Shown here one piece after another: positions 954 to 34,829 of a stretch of 64,000 bases of DNA. Both the position numbers and the translations under genes were made by a program. Positions within the stretch are counted from its first letter, which is position 1. Every line of letters starts with the position of its first letter. The notes under the pieces are model-generated. The model saw only the letters and a list, made by a program, of their open reading frames with translations, ran no database searches and was not told where the DNA came from. This stretch comes from Flavobacteriales bacterium (GTDB taxonomy: Bacteria; Bacteroidota; Bacteroidia; Flavobacteriales_F; PHOS-HE28): assembly GCA_016788295.1 (NCBI GenBank), contig JAEUSY010000004.1, forward strand, positions 248,001 to 312,000, written 5' to 3'.

Positions 954-2111
954 ATGGACCTTTCCCACATCCTCACACACCTCGGCGAAGAACGTGAGCG
1001 CGGCTTCGATGCCGTGGTGCCGCCCATCGTACAGAGCGGAAATTTCACCTACCCCACCGTGGCCGCCATGCGCGCGGTGGTGCAGCAGGAGATGGAACGC
1101 CCGCTCTACACACGCGGATTCAACCCCACCGTGGGCATGCTGCGGAAGAAGATCGCCGCTTTGGAACATGCCGAAGATGCGCTGGTCTTCAGCAGTGGCA
1201 GCGCTGCGATCGCGGCAGCAGTGATCAGCTTCACCAAGGCGGGCGATCACATCGTGTGTGTACACAAGCCCTATAGCTGGACCAAGAAACTGCTGGCCGA
1301 ACTGCTCGTGCGTTTCGGTGTGGAACACACCTTCGTGGACGGCACCGATGCGGAGAACTACCGCAAGGCCATCAAGCCGAACACCGCCTTCTTCATCCTG
1401 GAAAGTCCCAACTCGCTCACCTTTGAGCTGCAGGACATCGCAGCGGTGGCGGCCATCGCCAAGGAGCGCGGCATCATCACGCTGTGCGACAACAGCTTCA
1501 ACAGCCCGCTGTACCAGAACCCGATCGATCTCGGCATCGACATGGTAGCGCACAGTGCCACCAAATATCTGAACGGCCACAGCGATGTGGTGGCGGGCGT
1601 GCTCGCGGGCAGTGCCGCGCACATGCGCCAGGTCATGAGCAAGGAGTTCATGACCCTTGGTGCAGCGCCGTCACCGCACGATGCATGGCTGCTGATGCGC
1701 GGCCTGCGCACACTGCCCCTGCGCATGGAACGCAGCGCGGACAATGCGGAGAAGGTGGCGCGCTTCCTTGAGGCACACCCGAAAGTGAAGCGCGTGCATT
1801 GGCCAGGGCTGGAAAGCCATCCGCAGCATACTCTTGCGAAGAAGCAGATGAAGCGCGTGGCCGGCTTGATGAGCATCGAACTGGATGCACCGGACGTTGC
1901 AGCCGTGGAACGTTTCTGCGACAACCTGAAGACCTTCCTGATCGCAGTGAGCTGGGGCGGATACGAAAGCCTGCAATGGCCGGTGTGCGCGTTACAAGGA
2001 CCAAGTGGTTACTACACCGACCTGCCCTTCACCATGATACGCTTATACGTGGGGCTGGAGGATCCCAACATGCTCATCGCAGACCTGGAGCATGCGCTTT
2101 CCCGCATGTGA
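954..2111 (+). CDS. PLP-dependent trans-sulfuration enzyme (Cys/Met metabolism family)
   Basis: A 385-residue fold-type I PLP enzyme of the cystathionine gamma-synthase/beta-lyase/methionine gamma-lyase family. Family marks are the N-terminal YTRGFNPTVGMLRKKIAALE region, SGSAAIAAAVISF (phosphate-binding part), the aspartate stretch TLCDNSFNSPL, and the Schiff-base lysine K204 in HSATKYLNGHSDVVAGV. The C-terminal SWGGYESL motif is also typical. These enzymes make or break the C-S bond of cystathionine or related amino acids in the cytoplasm; which reaction this one performs cannot be told from motifs. I chose the ATG at 954 because the conserved N terminus begins there; an upstream in-frame start lies inside the terminator hairpin. 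It ends directly against the stop codon of the convergent gene at 2112, with no base between them. Confidence 0.85.
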   Translation: MDLSHILTHLGEERERGFDAVVPPIVQSGNFTYPTVAAMRAVVQQEMERPLYTRGFNPTVGMLRKKIAALEHAEDALVFSSGSAAIAAAVISFTKAGDHIVCVHKPYSWTKKLLAELLVRFGVEHTFVDGTDAENYRKAIKPNTAFFILESPNSLTFELQDIAAVAAIAKERGIITLCDNSFNSPLYQNPIDLGIDMVAHSATKYLNGHSDVVAGVLAGSAAHMRQVMSKEFMTLGAAPSPHDAWLLMRGLRTLPLRMERSADNAEKVARFLEAHPKVKRVHWPGLESHPQHTLAKKQMKRVAGLMSIELDAPDVAAVERFCDNLKTFLIAVSWGGYESLQWPVCALQGPSGYYTDLPFTMIRLYVGLEDPNMLIADLEHALSRM

Positions 2112-3455
2112 TCACTCCACCGGATACGGGTACTGGGGAGGCACGATGCACACCCCGCTATGGTTCACCGTCACCGAAGCACTGGCTGCTGGGCACGCTC
2201 CACCTACCACCGTGTAGGTGAACACATAGGTGCCTGATGAAACACCTGCCGGGTTGAAAGTGGCTCCGCTCAACGCACCTGTAGCGCTGTCGTCCGTCCA
2301 TGTGCCGCCCGGCGAGGGCGTTCCACCCAATTGCGCGAACAGGTCCAGCACGCCAGAGCTGAGGCACCAGTTCAACGTGGCATCGACCCCGGCGTTTGCA
2401 GGCGCATCCACGTTCATCAGTGCTGTTAGACTGACAGCCGGGCAAGGCGGAATGCCAGGAATGGTATACACGTATGGACCGATGGGATCGACACCAGGTG
2501 TGAACATATTGGAGTGAGGCGCACCCAGATAGGTCCATGTTCCGCCCGGTGGCAGTCCCGCCCCCATGTCGTATGGAGTGGGCGAGCACAGCGTGATGCT
2601 GAAATTCGGTCCCAGCACTGATGCGTCGTTCACCGAGATGCACAAGCTGCTGGTGGCATTGGCACACGGCAGGGATCCCACAACCGTGTAAGTGTAACAG
2701 CCGGACATACTGACTCCCGGAGTGAACACGGGCGACTGTGGATCACCTGCCGGGTTCGTCCATGTGCCGCCAACATCAGGGAAACCACCTAATGCCTGCA
2801 ACATCGAGAACGGGGCATCGGACGAACAGACCGAGAGCGTGGTATTGGTACCAGCAAACGGTACAACACTCGTATTCACGAACACCAATGCCGTATCGGC
2901 ACACCCATTCGGTGAGGTCACTATATACCGCAGCACTTCGCCATCAGCCATGCCGGTGAATTGATCATCGAACATCCAAACACCAATGCCCATATGGATC
3001 GACCATGTTCCGCCCATGTCCGGTGAGCCGTTGAGGAAGGGAAAGGCCTGAATGGAGTTGCCACAAACGGAAGCCACGGAATTCACTCCAGCATTCGGTG
3101 CCTCCATCAGCAGTCCAGCCGTCGGAACACCCAACTCCAGCGGATCACTGCTGTTCACCCGCAACTGGAAGCCATTGCCAGAAAGCCCCGCCGGGAAGAT
3201 GCAGGTGATCGTTCCCGAAGCGGTGGACACCACGGAACCCAGCACTGTCGGAGTCGCAAAGGATCCGTTGACGTCCGATAGCTCAGCCGTGAAGGTGTTC
3301 CCCGTGTTGTACGTACCCGATGCCGTGAAGGGCAGCTCCATCTGCACGTTGGCGCACAGGATACCCGTGGGGATCGTACCGACCGTGATCTGCGCTGTGC
3401 CGGGAGCGGCAAACCCGAGCAGGAAAAGGACAAGGATGTTGCGTGCGTTCTTCAT
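2112..3455 (-). CDS. Secreted repeat protein with Gly-Gly-Thr-Trp modules
   Basis: A 447-residue predicted exported protein: a signal peptide (NILVLFLLGFAAPGTAQ) is followed by repeated modules built around the motif GGTW, preceded by short hydrophobic stretches (FPFLNGSPDMGGTW, MLQALGGFPDVGGTW, MGAGLPPGGTW, LFAQLGGTPSPGGTW) and often followed by cysteine-containing segments. Such modules occur in large flavobacterial surface and gliding-associated proteins. No T9SS sorting domain is present: the protein stops at IVPPQYPYPVE, soon after the last module, so it may be a shortened relative of a larger adhesin or may be secreted in another way. Start chosen at the methionine directly before the basic, hydrophobic signal sequence. 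Exact role unknown. Confidence 0.75.
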   Translation of the reverse strand: MKNARNILVLFLLGFAAPGTAQITVGTIPTGILCANVQMELPFTASGTYNTGNTFTAELSDVNGSFATPTVLGSVVSTASGTITCIFPAGLSGNGFQLRVNSSDPLELGVPTAGLLMEAPNAGVNSVASVCGNSIQAFPFLNGSPDMGGTWSIHMGIGVWMFDDQFTGMADGEVLRYIVTSPNGCADTALVFVNTSVVPFAGTNTTLSVCSSDAPFSMLQALGGFPDVGGTWTNPAGDPQSPVFTPGVSMSGCYTYTVVGSLPCANATSSLCISVNDASVLGPNFSITLCSPTPYDMGAGLPPGGTWTYLGAPHSNMFTPGVDPIGPYVYTIPGIPPCPAVSLTALMNVDAPANAGVDATLNWCLSSGVLDLFAQLGGTPSPGGTWTDDSATGALSGATFNPAGVSSGTYVFTYTVVGGACPAASASVTVNHSGVCIVPPQYPYPVE

Positions 3456-3590
3456 GGTCCGTGGCATTGGCACGTGATGAAGCTACGCGTTCTTGAACAT
3501 CACACACGATCCGTTCGACGAACGACCGGGCAGAGCGGTACGAAATAGACCACCGTGGACGATCGACCAAGCGATCATCACGGCGCAGGC

Positions 3591-4895
3591 CTACTTCTTC
3601 CTAAAGAACAACCGGATCGGCACGCCGGTGAAGCGCCAGTGCTCGCGCAGGCGGTTCTCCAGGAAGCGCTCGTAGCTGGGCTTGATGTACTGCGGCAGGT
3701 TGCAGTAGAACACGAAGGTGGGCACGTAGGTGGGCAGCTGCGTGATGAACTTGATGGTGACCTGCTTCGCCTTGTACATGGGCGGCGGTTGGCGCTCGAT
3801 GATGGGCAGCAGCTCGTCGTTCAGTTTGCGCGTGGGGATGCGGCGCTTGCGGTCCTCATAGACCTGCACGGCCAGTTCCATGGTCTTGATGAGGCGCTGC
3901 TTCTCCAGCACCGAAATGAAGATCACCGGCACATCGGTGAAGGGTTCGAGGCGCTGTTTCACGTCGGCCTCGAACGCCTTCATGGTGTTGGTCTCCTTTT
4001 CGATGAGGTCCCACTTGTTCACCACCACCACCAAGCCCTTGCCGTTCTTCTGGATGATGGACAGGATGTGCAGGTCCTGTTGCTGCACACCTTCCTGCGC
4101 ATCGATCATCAGCAGGCACACATCGCTGTCCTCGATGGCGCGTACGGAGCGCAGCACGCTGTAGAACTCGATGTCCTCATCAACCTTGCTCTTCTTGCGG
4201 ATACCGGCCGTATCCAGCAGCATCACATCGTGCCCGAACACGTTCCAACGTGTGTTGATGGGATCGCGTGTGGTGCCGGCCACCGGGGTTACGATGTTCT
4301 GCTGGCGACCCAACAGTGCGTTCACCAGGGAGGATTTGCCCACGTTCGGCTTGCCCACGATGGCAAAACGGGGGATGTCCGGTTCGGCCTCCTCGCTCGG
4401 TTTAGTGAATCCGGCAACGAGCGCATCGAGCATGTCACCGGTGCCTGCACCGCTCACCGCTGCAATGCAGAACACTTCGCCGAGACCCAGGCTGTAGAAC
4501 TCGGCGGAATCGTACTGCCGTGCGTGTTCATCCACTTTATTGGCCACAAGCAGGACAGGCTTCTTTGCCCGGCGCAACATCTTGGCAATGGCCTCGTCCA
4601 TACCGGTTATGCCGTGCTGTACGTCCACCAGGAACAGGATGGAGTCGGACTCCTCGATGGCAAGGTTCACCTGCTTGCGGATCTCGCCCTCGAACACATC
4701 ATCACTGCCGCTGACATAGCCACCGGTATCGATCACACTGAACATGACACCGTTCCACTCGGCCTTGCCGTAGTGGCGGTCACGCGTGGTGCCGGCGGTG
4801 GGGTCGGTGATGGCCTCCTTGCGTTCGATCAAGCGATTGAACAGCGTGCTCTTCCCGACGTTGGGCCTTCCTACGATGGCGACAATGTTTCCCAT
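3591..4895 (-). CDS. der: Ribosome-assembly GTPase Der (EngA)
   Basis: A 434-residue protein with two GTPase domains in tandem, the mark of Der. The first has a P-loop GRPNVGKST near the N terminus, the switch motif TAGTTRD, DTGGY, and NKVD; the second has GKPNVGKSS (about residue 180), AGTTRDP, DTAGI and NKWD. A KH-like C-terminal domain ends in a basic tail (PIRLFFRKK). Der acts in the cytoplasm in maturation of the 50S ribosomal subunit. Length is normal for the family. It lies downstream of era on the same strand, separated by a strong inverted repeat, so two ribosome-assembly GTPases are neighbours here. Start ATG is followed at once by the first P-loop, as usual for Der. Confidence 0.97.
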
Positions 4896-4918
4896 TTGCT
4901 CTGAGTTAGGAGCGCTGG

Positions 4919-4970
4919 GTAGCGAGTGGCGAGTGGCCTCCCGGAAAGGATGTCACTCGCCACTCGCTAC
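4919..4970. repeat. Perfect 17-bp inverted repeat between era and der
   Basis: GTAGCGAGTGGCGAGTG at 4919-4935 is perfectly repeated as its reverse complement at 4954-4970, with an 18-base spacer. Each arm itself contains two copies of GCGAGTGG-like units. There is no U-tract, so it looks more like a REP-type or mRNA-stabilising hairpin in the era-der transcript than a terminator. Confidence 0.8.
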
Positions 4971-4989
4971 TCGCTGATCTCCACTGCAT

Positions 4990-5865
4990 TCAATATCCGT
5001 ATCGTTTCAGTTTGCGCTCATCCTCGCGCCAGTCCTCATCCACTTTCACCCGCAGGTCCAGGAACACCTTGGTGCCCACGAAGCGCTCGATGGCGATGCG
5101 TGCCTCGGTGCCCAGTTTCCGCAAAGCCTTGCCGCCCTGGCCAATGATGATGCCCTTCTGGCTCTCGCGCATCACGATCACATCGGCCTGGATCTTTGTC
5201 AGCGCCTCTCCTTCCTCGAAGCTGTTCACCACCACTTCGGTGCTGTAGGGGATCTCCTGCTTGTAGAAGGCCAGCACCTTTTCGCGGATCATCTCGCTCA
5301 CGAAGAAGCGCATGTTGCGATCGCTGAGGTCCTCCTTGTCGAAGTAGGGCGGATGCTCGGGCAGGTGATCGATGAGGTACTGCCGCAACTCGTTCACATT
5401 GAGACCGTGCAGCGCGCTCAGGGGCACCACCTTCGCCTCAGGAAAGGCGTTCTGCCAAGCATGCAGCGCTTCCAGCACGACCTCTTCGGTACCGGTATCC
5501 ACCTTGTTCACCAGCACCAGCATGGGGCCTTTGAAGCGCTGGGCGCGTTTCACCACGTTCTCGGCCTTCTCGGGACGTTGTCCCAGTTCCACCAGTACGA
5601 TCAGCAGATCGGCATCAATGAGCGCCTCATCCACGGCCTTCATCATGCTGTGGTGCATCCGGTACTGCGGATCGAGGATGCCCGGCGTATCGCTGAGGAC
5701 CAGCTGGTGGTCCTCGCCGTTGATGATGCCCAGGATCCGGTGGCGCGTGGTCTGTGCCTTCGGGTTGGTGATCACCAACTGCTCGCCGAGCAGGGCGTTG
5801 AGCAGCGTGCTCTTGCCCACGTTGGGTTCACCGATGATGTTGACGTATCCGGCCTTGTGTGCCAT
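4990..5865 (-). CDS. era: GTPase Era
   Basis: A 291-residue GTPase with an N-terminal G domain (P-loop [27 protein letters not shown], and NKVD near residue 120) and a C-terminal type II KH domain with the RNA-binding signature IIGQGGKALRKLG, followed by KVFLDLRVKVDEDWR. Era binds the 3' end of 16S rRNA and assists 30S assembly in the cytoplasm. The start is placed at the second methionine (MAHKAGYVNIIG), which gives the usual short leader before the P-loop; a start two codons upstream is possible. It is followed by der on the same strand. Confidence 0.97.
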   Translation of the reverse strand: MAHKAGYVNIIGEPNVGKSTLLNALLGEQLVITNPKAQTTRHRILGIINGEDHQLVLSDTPGILDPQYRMHHSMMKAVDEALIDADLLIVLVELGQRPEKAENVVKRAQRFKGPMLVLVNKVDTGTEEVVLEALHAWQNAFPEAKVVPLSALHGLNVNELRQYLIDHLPEHPPYFDKEDLSDRNMRFFVSEMIREKVLAFYKQEIPYSTEVVVNSFEEGEALTKIQADVIVMRESQKGIIIGQGGKALRKLGTEARIAIERFVGTKVFLDLRVKVDEDWREDERKLKRYGY

Positions 5866-29846: not shown

Positions 29847-29874
29847 CAAGCCCCGGTCGAAAGGCCGGGGCTTG
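29847..29874 (+). terminator. Terminator of groESL
   Basis: A 10-bp perfect GC-rich stem (CAAGCCCCGG/CCGGGGCTTG) with an 8-base loop, about 60 bases after the groEL stop codon; the U-tract is short (TTGTT). Confidence 0.75.
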
Positions 29875-30139: not shown

Positions 30140-31387
30140 ATGCAGATCACCCCGAAACGCTTCTTCGACTTCTGCGGGAGCCATGTGCCCTTATTGCACG
30201 CCATTGCCATGCGCCCTGGCGATGTAAGCGAGGCACAGGTGCGGCAGATGATCAGGACCTTCAGCGACACAACCGCTGAACAGCCCGAGACCACGTGGCA
30301 GCGCCTGCTTGAACTACAGGTGATCGTGCCGTTGGAGGAAGGCAGCTCACACTATGTGATGAGCCAACCGCTGTTGCAGCTGCTGAACTTCCTGTACAAC
30401 GATGCGCTGCCCACCAGTCCCGAGATCATCCAGGGCTACATCGCCGCTCTGGAAAGCGCACGCAAGCGTATCGCCATTGGCGTGGAGGCCGCCGATCCGC
30501 TGAGCGTGGCCATGGCCACCAACGAAGTGGACCACACCCTGCGCCGCATGCAGGACGACCTGGATGCCACCCACCGCGCCGTGTTGGCCGAAGTGGCGCG
30601 TTACAAGGCTGACCGCAGCAGTGTGAGCGTGCGTGAACGCTACTTGCGGATTCTGAGCCTGATGGACCAGTACGTGCATCCGCTGGTGGAGATCGTGCGG
30701 GTGGACGGCCTGCTTGACAGCACGCTGATCGAGACCGATCTGGTGCTGCGCGCGGCACGCGAACAGGGCGTATACGTGGAACTGAACATGGTGCAGCGCA
30801 ACGAGCGCCAGATCCGTGTGCTGCGTCGCCGCGCCATCCACACCCTGAACGAGAGCCGCAAGGAACTGCAGCCCTTGTATGATGTGCTGCGCCGCTCAAG
30901 TGCCATTGCACACGGTGCCACGCTGGCCCTGGGCCGCCTGCGCCAAATGAAATTGGAGGATTGGGTGGCCAACTATGTCACCCCCACCACCAATGCACGA
31001 GTGGAGTGCCCACCTACGGACGAAGTGCTGCGCCGCATCATTGACGAGGTGATCTCGCACCCGCCCATTGCACCGCCGCTTCTGAACACTTCGGAGGATG
31101 CCGAAACACCGCCTGACTACGTGCGCCTGTTGTGGCTGAACGAACTGCCCGAACGCCTGAACGAGGAACTTCCGGTGAAGGACCTGACGGCATGGCTTAC
31201 GGGCAACTTCCCCGAGAAAGGCACGGCGGATGCCCTGTTGGGCCTGAGCCGCCTGCTCTTCGACCCGAAACTCGCCGTTGACTTCAAGCACGGCAAGACC
31301 AAACACTACCGTACACGCGACGGCATCCTTGAGGCCGCCACCATTTCGATCACCAAGACATCGCCTTCGCCCGCCAAGGCGAAGTAA
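30140..31387 (+). CDS. MksF-like kleisin subunit of a condensin-like complex
   Basis: A 415-residue, mostly helical soluble protein, first of three genes arranged like mksF-mksE-mksB. The N terminus looks like a winged-helix part (QITPKRFFDFCGSHVPLLHA ... WQRLLELQVIVPLEEG), the middle is a long helical region (LRRMQDDLDATHRAVLAEVA, ERYLRILSLMDQYVHPLVEI), and the C terminus again has short helices before a basic tail. This matches the expected kleisin plan, where N- and C-terminal parts bridge the two SMC heads. The call rests on gene order, size and helical pattern, not on a family motif I can name. Start at ATG 30140 is chosen because the conserved-looking region starts there; ATG 30110 would add ten residues. 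Confidence 0.6.
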   Translation: MQITPKRFFDFCGSHVPLLHAIAMRPGDVSEAQVRQMIRTFSDTTAEQPETTWQRLLELQVIVPLEEGSSHYVMSQPLLQLLNFLYNDALPTSPEIIQGYIAALESARKRIAIGVEAADPLSVAMATNEVDHTLRRMQDDLDATHRAVLAEVARYKADRSSVSVRERYLRILSLMDQYVHPLVEIVRVDGLLDSTLIETDLVLRAAREQGVYVELNMVQRNERQIRVLRRRAIHTLNESRKELQPLYDVLRRSSAIAHGATLALGRLRQMKLEDWVANYVTPTTNARVECPPTDEVLRRIIDEVISHPPIAPPLLNTSEDAETPPDYVRLLWLNELPERLNEELPVKDLTAWLTGNFPEKGTADALLGLSRLLFDPKLAVDFKHGKTKHYRTRDGILEAATISITKTSPSPAKAK

Positions 31388-31421
31388 AAGGACCCCAACG
31401 CCGGGCTACGGCGTACAACGC

Positions 31422-32000
31422 ATGAACACCCTTCCCCAACTGAAGGACATCTTCGACAAGCTTCGTCAAGGTGCCTACATCACCCACGAACAAGGCACGA
31501 TGCACGCCGCATTGGCCGAGAACTATGAGGGCTACAAGGAGTATTTCGAGCCGCTGGGCCTGAACCTGATCAGGCACCCGCGCGACTTCTTCTACTTCCA
31601 CACGGAAACAGCAGAAGGCACGCCACCTGCGGCATCGCTGGCACCCATGGCGGTGTTCTGCTTCATCCTCATCGAGGCCGCCTCCAATGAAGGGCGCCCG
31701 ATCGAGGAATACCTGCTCACCGAGCGCTTCACGCTGGCGGGCCTGCCGCACCTGAAGAGCGACCGCTACAAGGCACACATGCGTGCCGTGGAAGTAGACG
31801 ACGAGGCCGGACTGCGCAAGCTGCTCAAGAGCATGGCCACCAAGGGTTGGGCCGAATACAACAACGACGACACCTTCCGGTTCCTGCGTCCGCTGCACCG
31901 CCTGTTCGATAAATGCCAGGAGATCAGCGCGGCTGCCGAGCAGGAAGCACGCGAAGTGCTGCCCAGCATCAGCAAGGACTTCGACCCCGAAATGAACTGA
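31422..32000 (+). CDS. MksE-like subunit of a condensin-like complex
   Basis: A 192-residue soluble protein between the kleisin-like and SMC-like genes, the position and size of MksE (JetB in Wadjet). It shows the pattern of a tandem winged-helix KITE-type protein: helix (LPQLKDIFDKLRQGAYITHE), YFEPLGLNLIRHPRDFFYFH (strand and wing of the first unit), APMAVFCFILIEAASNEGRP, then LRKLLKSMATKGWAEYNNDDTFRFLRPLHRL with a typical wing ending FRFLRP. Such proteins bind the kleisin and modulate the ATPase or DNA clamp. No catalytic motif is seen. Gap to the next gene is 43 bases. Confidence 0.6.
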   Translation: MNTLPQLKDIFDKLRQGAYITHEQGTMHAALAENYEGYKEYFEPLGLNLIRHPRDFFYFHTETAEGTPPAASLAPMAVFCFILIEAASNEGRPIEEYLLTERFTLAGLPHLKSDRYKAHMRAVEVDDEAGLRKLLKSMATKGWAEYNNDDTFRFLRPLHRLFDKCQEISAAAEQEAREVLPSISKDFDPEMN

Positions 32001-32043
32001 GAACGGCCCACGCGAACGCCACGGCCACGACAACGCCATTCCC

Positions 32044-34773
32044 ATGCAAGCAGGACTAGGACCTTCCAAGCTCATTGCCATCCGCAGCGGCAGTTACGAC
32101 TATGCCGAGGTGGACCTCGCGAGCTCCATACAGCTCGTGGGCCCCAACAACGCGGGCAAGACCACGCTGATCAACACGTTGCAGTTCCTCTACCTGGACA
32201 ACCGCAACCAGATGGCCTTCGGCGACCACGACCCCGAGGCCACGCGCGCCTACTACTTCCCCGACCACTTCAGCTACCTGCTGTTCGAACTGGAAGGCCC
32301 GCAAGGCCCCTACGTGCTGGGCTGGCGCGGGCAGAGCAAGGCACAGGGCGGCGACCCCATCCGTTTCACGTACGATGGGCGCTACGACATGAAGGACTTC
32401 ATGAGCGCCGATGGTCGCGTACTGGACCCGAAGAAGGTGGACGCCAAGCTCGGCGACCGCAACTTCCGCGTGCTGCGTGATGCTGCCGGACACCGCGAGG
32501 CGATCCTGGTGGCCACCAAGGGCGAGAGCAATGGACTGGGCGTGGTACACCTCACCGAGAGCGACCGCTACGCGCACTTCAAGGAAGTCCTGAAGAACCT
32601 GCTCAGCCTGCGCAGCATCGACCAGCACGAGATGAAGCGCAGCCTGCTGATGCTGGCCGGCATACCGCCGAACAAGCCCGCACTGGAGGCCAATCGCCTG
32701 ATGACCGAGGACTTCGAGCGCATCCGCGACCGTCGTCTGAAGCTGAACACGCTGAAGAGCGAGCGCGAACGCCTGGAGAAGTACATCGACATGAGCGACG
32801 GACGCTTCACGCTGGAGGCCCGCCTGGCCTTCGTGTACGCCGATCTGATGGAAAAGCGCCGCAAGGCCCACGACCACAACAAGCACGTGAAAGAGGCCAT
32901 TGTGGCCAAACAGGAGGCGCTGGAAAAAGAGAAGATCAGTACCGCCGAGATCCTGAAGGACCTGGACGAGAAGATCGCCGAACTGGCCGGATCGAAAGGC
33001 CGTGCCGAAGGTGACCTTGCCCGCATTGCCGATCTGGGCAAGGGCCTGGAGCACTTCGTGGAGAACCTGGAGCGCGAGGCATTGGGCAACGCCAAAGAGC
33101 GCCTGCACGTGCTGAACCGGCAATTGGGCAACGCCGAAGAGGCCGACCGTCAGCGTACCGCGCGCAGCCTGGCCGAGGTGAGCGCCCGCGTGACGAGCAC
33201 AGAACGCGCGATCGCCAACTTCGACAAGGCACTCATCACCGAGCTGCGCGAAACGCTGAACGACGAGCAATTGCACGGTCTCTCGAAGCTCTTCAACCTG
33301 GACATCCTGAAGCTGCCCGTGGAGAAAGGCAGCGTGGAGCTGAAGAAGCGCAAGCAGATCGATGCGCTGCTGAAGAGCGTGGCGGAGAACATCGCCAACG
33401 ACCGCTACAGCGACGCCCTGCTGAGCCTGCCCCTGCCGGACAACAGCAATGCCTGGAAAGAGCTATTGGACGTGAAGGCCCTGAAGCGGTCGCTCACCGA
33501 TCTGAAGGCCGAACAGGACCGTCTGCGCAAGCTGATGGATGCCATCGAGAACCGCGAGGCACTGGCCAAGGAGCGTGCAGCGGTGCAGGCCGAATGCGAT
33601 GCGCACGTGGAAAAGCTGGCCCGCTGGGAGCGATTCCAAGTGGACAAGCGCGACGAGCCGAAACTGCAGAAGCGCTTGGCCGAGCTGAACAAGGAGAAGA
33701 GCGAAGGCGACAAGCAGCGCAAGGAGGTGCGTGACAAACTGGAGGAGATCGGCGTGAAGCTGTTCGAGCAGCGCACCGCGTTGAACAAGGAGGACGAGCG
33801 CTTCAACCGCTTGCTGGTGCTGTTGGAACAATGCGTGCCGCCACCCGACCCCAACGCCACGGGAAAAGAGCCGATGGCCGTGCCGAGTGATGCCGAGGAC
33901 GCCATTGAGCTGTACCGCAAGCTGATGCTGGAGCACAACGTGATGAGCCGCGAGATGGACCAGCTCCGCAGCAAGATCGAGAACGTACTGAAGAGCGACA
34001 TCATCGGCCCCACGGAGGCGGAAACCGTGCAGCTGATGCGCGAACAGTTGGAGGGCCTGCCCACCTTCGAGGAGACCCTGCGCAAGGACTGGGACAACTA
34101 CCTGCACCTGTTGCGCGCCAACTTCGCCAACGTGCTCAACGGCCTGAACGACATCAAGGGTGCCGCCGAAATGCTCAACCGCCGTTTCAATAACGTGAGC
34201 GTGAGCAACCTGGAAAGCCTGAAGATGGAGGTGATGGACCAGAACGAGCTGGTGGCCGCACTGAAGGAACTGGCCGAGACCGACCACACGGGGCTCTTCG
34301 ACAGCTCGGGCAAGCTGGATGCGGCCTACCAAAGCTTCCGCAACAAGCTGAGCGAGCGCCTTACACTGAACTACGGCGATCTGTTCACGCTGCGCTTCAC
34401 GGTGAGCACACGCGCCGGACGCACCCACAGCTACGACAACCTGCAGGTGGAGAGCCACGGTACGGCCATCACCATCAAGGTGTTGTTCAACCTGCTGGTG
34501 CTGCGCAGCATGCTGAAGGAGGACCCGAAGAAACTGACGCCGCTCTCGCGCGTGCCCTTCTTCCTGGACGAAGTGCATTCGCTGGATGCCATCAACCGCA
34601 AGGCCGTGCTGAGCATGGCCAAGGACCTCGGCTTCATGGCCATCACCGCAGCACCCGAGCCTGTGAGCGAAGTGGATGCCCTCTACTTCCTGCGTCCGGT
34701 GAACGGTCGCCTGGTGGTACGCAACGAATTGCGCGTTGGCGTGAAGTTCGACGAGGCCGTGGTGGAAGCCTGA
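32044..34773 (+). CDS. MksB-like SMC ATPase of a condensin-like complex
   Basis: A 909-residue SMC/Rad50-type ATPase. Walker A lies at residues 33-41 (GPNNAGKTT, K39) and Walker B near the end (VPFFLDEVHSLD, D842-E843), so the two half-sites are at opposite ends of the chain, as in SMC proteins. Between them are two coiled-coil stretches (about 230-390 and 480-600) around a central region, shorter than in MukB or true SMC. The signature region reads ESHGTAITIKVLFNLLVL, not the usual LSGGE, as in Mks-type relatives. The head uses ATP to close a DNA-entrapping ring with the two upstream partners. A terminator follows at once, so no fourth gene (MksG/JetD nuclease) belongs to this unit. Confidence 0.75.
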   Translation: MQAGLGPSKLIAIRSGSYDYAEVDLASSIQLVGPNNAGKTTLINTLQFLYLDNRNQMAFGDHDPEATRAYYFPDHFSYLLFELEGPQGPYVLGWRGQSKAQGGDPIRFTYDGRYDMKDFMSADGRVLDPKKVDAKLGDRNFRVLRDAAGHREAILVATKGESNGLGVVHLTESDRYAHFKEVLKNLLSLRSIDQHEMKRSLLMLAGIPPNKPALEANRLMTEDFERIRDRRLKLNTLKSERERLEKYIDMSDGRFTLEARLAFVYADLMEKRRKAHDHNKHVKEAIVAKQEALEKEKISTAEILKDLDEKIAELAGSKGRAEGDLARIADLGKGLEHFVENLEREALGNAKERLHVLNRQLGNAEEADRQRTARSLAEVSARVTSTERAIANFDKALITELRETLNDEQLHGLSKLFNLDILKLPVEKGSVELKKRKQIDALLKSVAENIANDRYSDALLSLPLPDNSNAWKELLDVKALKRSLTDLKAEQDRLRKLMDAIENREALAKERAAVQAECDAHVEKLARWERFQVDKRDEPKLQKRLAELNKEKSEGDKQRKEVRDKLEEIGVKLFEQRTALNKEDERFNRLLVLLEQCVPPPDPNATGKEPMAVPSDAEDAIELYRKLMLEHNVMSREMDQLRSKIENVLKSDIIGPTEAETVQLMREQLEGLPTFEETLRKDWDNYLHLLRANFANVLNGLNDIKGAAEMLNRRFNNVSVSNLESLKMEVMDQNELVAALKELAETDHTGLFDSSGKLDAAYQSFRNKLSERLTLNYGDLFTLRFTVSTRAGRTHSYDNLQVESHGTAITIKVLFNLLVLRSMLKEDPKKLTPLSRVPFFLDEVHSLDAINRKAVLSMAKDLGFMAITAAPEPVSEVDALYFLRPVNGRLVVRNELRVGVKFDEAVVEA

Positions 34774-34793
34774 GCAGGACAACAACGACCGTG

Positions 34794-34829
34794 AAAAGGG
34801 CCGCTCCCGAATTGGGAGCGGCCCTTTTT
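34794..34829 (+). terminator. Terminator of the condensin-like operon
   Basis: A 15-bp perfect stem (AAAAGGGCCGCTCCC and its complement) with a 5-base loop, ending in five T. It begins 20 bases after the MksB-like stop codon and closes the three-gene unit. Confidence 0.92.

Follow-up and report, generated by a model that had tools for sequence, protein, structure and literature searches.

Among the closest described systems, the MksBEF complex of Pseudomonas aeruginosa was described without a nuclease and is a chromosome condensin (Petrushenko 2011; PMC7485682, PMC10586767). In addition, a Hi-C study of two gut Bacteroidetes found no known condensin and a weak arm-alignment signal in one of the two, and raised the question of what fills that role instead (PMC10197239). 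The operon described here lies in a 64,000-nucleotide stretch of DNA, hereafter the window, from a draft Flavobacteriales genome (G000; 3.78 Mb, about 96% complete). Like the P. aeruginosa complex, in which the B subunit measures about 900 to 930 amino acids (aa) (PMC7485682), it has three subunits and no nuclease, and NCBIfam Mks models matched all three of its products. P. aeruginosa also has SMC-ScpAB, however, whereas no SMC-ScpA was found here.

The operon comprised three forward-strand genes (positions 30140 to 34773) in the order mksF-mksE-mksB, separated by gaps of 34 and 43 bases. The gene products were a 415-aa kleisin with an N-terminal winged helix, a helical middle part, and a C-terminal winged helix (mksF, 30140..31387, +); a 192-aa KITE protein (mksE, 31422..32000, +); and a 909-aa SMC-like ATPase (mksB, 32044..34773, +). 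The groES-groEL genes lay 5' of the operon, with an inverted repeat, the groEL terminator (29847..29874, no strand assigned), in between. On the 3' side, the operon was closed by a strong terminator consisting of a stem-loop and a T-run (34798..34824, +), with an RNA fold of -35.3 kcal/mol (z = -7.0), and was followed by a DUF4139/DUF4140 (MuiA-like) gene. The original prediction, made from the sequence alone, had given these open reading frames with their sizes, strand, and order, a closing terminator, and an unrelated MuiA-like next gene, all of which held apart from the start of mksE, here corrected to 31422.

Profile and fold searches supported the assignment of the three genes, already named MksF, MksE, and MksB in that prediction, to an MksBEF-type condensin. 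The mksF product matched NCBIfam NF040857 (412 positions) over nearly its full length (5.5e-20, residues 3 to 398), and the top Foldseek matches of its AF2 model (moderate, pLDDT 60) were MukF structures (9gm7_C, 3.8e-7; 3euh_A, 4.5e-5). The mksE product matched Pfam MksE (4.3e-27, 95.9 bits against a cut-off of 27) and NCBIfam NF040858 (5.5e-19); an MksE profile search of the PDB returned MukE (4.3e-6), and the AF2 model (moderate, pLDDT 65) matched MukE (3euh_D, 3.3e-6) and the Wadjet subunit JetB (8as8_C, 7.4e-5) in Foldseek. The two small proteins, for which the lack of any kleisin or KITE fold would have spoken against the assignment, thus matched folds of both kinds. The mksB product matched NCBIfam NF040859 (926 positions) at 6.5e-32. 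Sequence searches of the PDB returned nothing useful for MksB or for MksF, although the fold search did match the latter. All three subunits scored far under the NCBIfam equivalog cut-offs (71.5/750, 68.6/400, and 110.3/1900 bits), and the system is therefore a distant relative of MksBEF and not an equivalog. A comparison with both Mks and Jet profiles had been proposed; the Mks profiles matched all three subunits, but the PADLOC Jet models gave no convincing match (best E-values, 0.015 for JetB and 0.008 for JetC; none for JetA). Pfam MukE scored 18.9 bits against the mksE product, under its cut-off of 25, and no relatives of the system were found in phages. The names of two NCBIfam models appear to be swapped, since NF040857, the kleisin model of 412 positions, carries the name "MksB" and NF040859, the SMC model of 926 positions, the name "MksF."

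The ATPase motifs of MksB were intact. Walker A (GPNNAGKT, residues 33 to 40; 32140..32163, +) and Walker B (FFLDEVHSLD, residues 839 to 848; 34558..34587, +) were conserved and nearly invariant across all full-length copies in the genus, and in the signature ESHGT (residues 803 to 807; 34450..34464, +) S804, G806, and T807 were invariant. The signature had been singled out earlier as departing from the LSGGE form; ESHGT was quoted correctly, but it is no oddity, because S-x-GT is the normal form throughout the MksB family and recurs as ESDGT or QSRGT in distant Bacteroidia B proteins and as QSNGTSITIKV in Salinibacter. Values of dN/dS were 0.02 to 0.12 for mksF, mksE, and mksB, like those of GroEL, and the genes are therefore real and under purifying selection. 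At two other loci (L167 and L192, in genomes G106 and G225), MksE was followed by a partner of 1020 to 1050 aa in which a simple pattern recognised no Walker A; these partners are possibly ATPase-dead SMC-like proteins.

JetD_C, the canonical nuclease domain, was found in none of the 23 genus genomes searched, the window's genome included, and was rare in the class (17 of 395 Bacteroidia genomes). As the sole test for a nuclease it was rejected as insufficient, because related operons carry short, divergent TOPRIM fourth genes. Several Bacteroidia mks operons encode such a fourth protein of 263 to 326 aa, in which one E is invariant and the motif D-x-D-x-x-G occurs; these proteins gave weak matches to JetD_C or DUF7281 and to PADLOC JetD. 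Examples include L175:9503-10294(-), L173:5892-6689(+), L164:3336-4208(-), L171:3634-4578(-), and L172:9945-10907(+), among others; these genes fall partly in Pfam DUF7281, and with PADLOC and JetD_C most of them go undetected or score very low. A new profile of the divergent short TOPRIM nucleases was therefore built and searched. After one iteration it recovered canonical JetD proteins, with ten new matches at 1e-8 to 1e-29 among them, and the short fourth proteins are therefore JetD/MksG relatives. Lists of "nuclease-less" Mks systems accordingly need rechecking, since standard JetD models miss these short partners. The first such profile had no match in 12 of the 13 mks-positive genus genomes, including that of the window and the single-contig relative G010. 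The missing nuclease subunit of the original prediction was thus upheld by the canonical JetD and the divergent TOPRIM profiles alike, and a search for a distant mksG or jetD came up empty both in the window's genome, a draft, and in G010. The remaining genome, G346, has an orphan MksG-like TOPRIM gene (L181:6578-7522(-), contig C90) upstream of a Cas9-like gene (1467-5855, -), with mksFEB on another contig. The MksE helix "IFDK" was also considered as a counterpart of the JetD-docking motif "IFDR" of JetB and was discarded, similar helices being present in operons with and without a nuclease.

Among the proteins compared, all three subunits scored best with plasmid-borne F-E-B-G operons, closest being Salinibacter ruber pSR76, followed by Halioglobus pRR3-57 and Neptuniibacter pLMG25378; Pseudomonas Leaf58 also matched, in B and E. 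A gene for a short TOPRIM protein (1e-7 to 1e-17) came after every plasmid F-E-B set. In these plasmid mksF-E-B-G operons (L282, L283, L284, and L285, from Salinibacter, Neptuniibacter, Halioglobus, and Pseudomonas, respectively), the products, where annotated, are hypothetical proteins. The plasmid B proteins grouped with the window's genus at an SH-aLRT of 100, a join that long branches make provisional. The gammaproteobacterial plasmid B proteins scored about 300 to 314 bits on the NCBIfam MksB-type model, which places the clade with MksBEF within the superfamily. Among the short-arm MksB proteins, presence of the nuclease switched five or more times along starred branches of the tree. Since its nearest relatives are four-gene plasmid operons, the window's operon is, to judge from these sequence relationships, probably related to Wadjet/MksFEBG and stripped of its nuclease.

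MksE or MksB was found in 13 of 32 genus genomes, the named relatives being metagenome-assembled genomes of Flavobacteriales or Bacteroidota. Wherever a contig showed the flank, the operon sat 3' of groEL, and the genes after it differed between genomes. In the closest sister genome, G016 (GroEL, 97%), groEL and its terminator, the repeat of which was kept, were followed directly by the DUF4139 gene, leaving a clean empty site. Presence and absence of mks required three changes on a tree of the flanking genes, on which the pairing of G000 with G016 was starred, and six on an RpoB tree. Horizontal exchange of mks alleles between genus members had been suggested by the MksB of G022, which is closer than expected from its GroEL, but it was set aside after an AU test based on the flanking genes failed to reject vertical grouping (p = 0.61). 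The occurrence in 13 of 32 genomes and the clean empty site in G016 indicate that members of the genus can do without the operon, even though its dN/dS values show that it is under selection.

No SMC over the TIGR02168 cut-off and no ScpA over its cut-off were found in the window's genome or in 22 genus relatives; the same searches found both in three class relatives. A genome search for canonical SMC-ScpAB had been suggested with the original prediction, and at this sensitivity it returned neither protein. With the whole sampled genus devoid of SMC and ScpA, MksFEB is the only condensin detected there, and since G016 has neither mksFEB nor SMC-ScpA, no condensin is required in that species. 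In a sample of 395 Bacteroidia genomes, MksE was present in 120 and ScpA in 81, so that SMC-ScpAB was missing from about four-fifths of the sample; in 208 genomes, neither of the two models detected a condensin. Operons in the class were then checked with the nuclease profiles, with cut or unclear operons set aside. Nuclease-less operons were present in 81 of 314 ScpA-less genomes, about a quarter, versus 4 of 81 ScpA-bearing genomes (Fisher, 1.4e-5), whereas nuclease-bearing operons showed no bias (17 of 314 versus 8 of 81, p = 0.20). Genomes are not independent, however, and the nuclease-less contrast counted by family was not significant (2/21 versus 17/~57, p = 0.08); the association with SMC loss is therefore suggestive only.

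Taken together, the analysis makes it fairly probable that the window's operon encodes a loop extruder that acts on the chromosome and is dispensable. Homology suggests that DNA loops would be enlarged at the expense of ATP by dimers of MksB, which the MksF kleisin and the MksE KITE protein would close. A Wadjet-like system of four genes, mksF-E-B-G, would be the ancestor of the lineage or share one with it, and the lineage would no longer have the TOPRIM nuclease MksG. A motor without a cutter would most likely act on the chromosome, by forming loops and aiding segregation, and, being the sole condensin where SMC-ScpAB is missing, it may have a conditionally useful, dispensable role. We infer the loop extrusion, the chromosomal target, and the loss, rather than the failure to gain, of MksG.

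The patchiness of the operon across the genus, with a clean empty site in the sister species, also fits a defence gene. MksFEB might still recognise small circular or foreign DNA and silence it, compact it, or deliver it to an unlinked host nuclease or to an MksG encoded in trans, a reading to which the nuclease-bearing four-gene relatives and the MksG-like TOPRIM that G346 carries away from its mksFEB lend some weight. We nevertheless consider it unlikely, because searches of the remaining 12 genus genomes with mks yielded no nuclease partner, the downstream genes are not conserved, and the operon keeps a fixed groEL-adjacent site in mks-bearing species instead of residing in shifting defence islands. 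The enrichment of nuclease-less operons where SMC-ScpAB is missing, together with the chromosomal role of MksBEF in P. aeruginosa, likewise favours the chromosome-acting extruder over defence. The original prediction had envisaged a defence-derived complex using another nuclease; the defence-system ancestry stands, through the plasmid F-E-B-G kin, but no other nuclease travels along.

Its other proposal, a housekeeping condensin, proved too strong, the operon being absent from most complete genus genomes. In the obligate form of that proposal, MksFEB would directly replace SMC-ScpAB in the lineage, in keeping with strong purifying selection and with the lack of SMC and ScpA in every genus member tested; such a role is highly improbable, given that most genus members, many of them at least 99% complete, lack both MksE and ScpA, that 208 of 395 genomes in the class have neither, and that for the genus it is contradicted by the empty site in G016. 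A decaying, non-functional Wadjet remnant, which might explain why the nuclease gene is missing and the rest is gone from the sister species, hardly deserves consideration against the dN/dS of 0.02 to 0.12 in all three genes, the intact motifs in all full-length copies, and the operon's own terminator.

Beyond the chromosome-acting extruder, it is conceivable, though we would not yet bet on it, that in Bacteroidia that lost SMC-ScpAB, nuclease-stripped Wadjet/MksFEBG systems repeatedly became the chromosome's only condensin, with the window's operon as a case caught in mid-turnover, one species having it while the sister no longer does. If true, this would mean that bacteria can live with no condensin at all. 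Sister species that differ by exactly mksFEB, with no other condensin found, offer a natural experiment on the purpose of condensins and on how defence machines that cut plasmids and organisers of the chromosome evolve into one another.

Compared with the remaining known systems, the operon shares with Wadjet (MksFEBG/JetABCD) its kleisin, KITE, and SMC subunits and the gene order F-E-B, but no JetD/MksG TOPRIM was found in the operon or the genome, and the B subunit has 909 aa, not about 1,100. With MukBEF it shares the folds of MksE and MksF, which resemble MukE and MukF, and the freedom from a nuclease; MksB is, however, much shorter (909 aa). The short-arm mks operons of other Bacteroidia, in the order B-F-E (L042, L170) or B-G-F-E (L175, L173), have the same S-x-GT signature, B proteins of 878 to 943 aa, and often no nuclease, but they differ in gene order, and their B proteins are only about 22% identical. 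The operon represents a known type of machine; what makes it interesting is its setting, a genus without SMC-ScpAB that includes sisters in which no condensin could be detected, and the fact that the nuclease is missing time and again.
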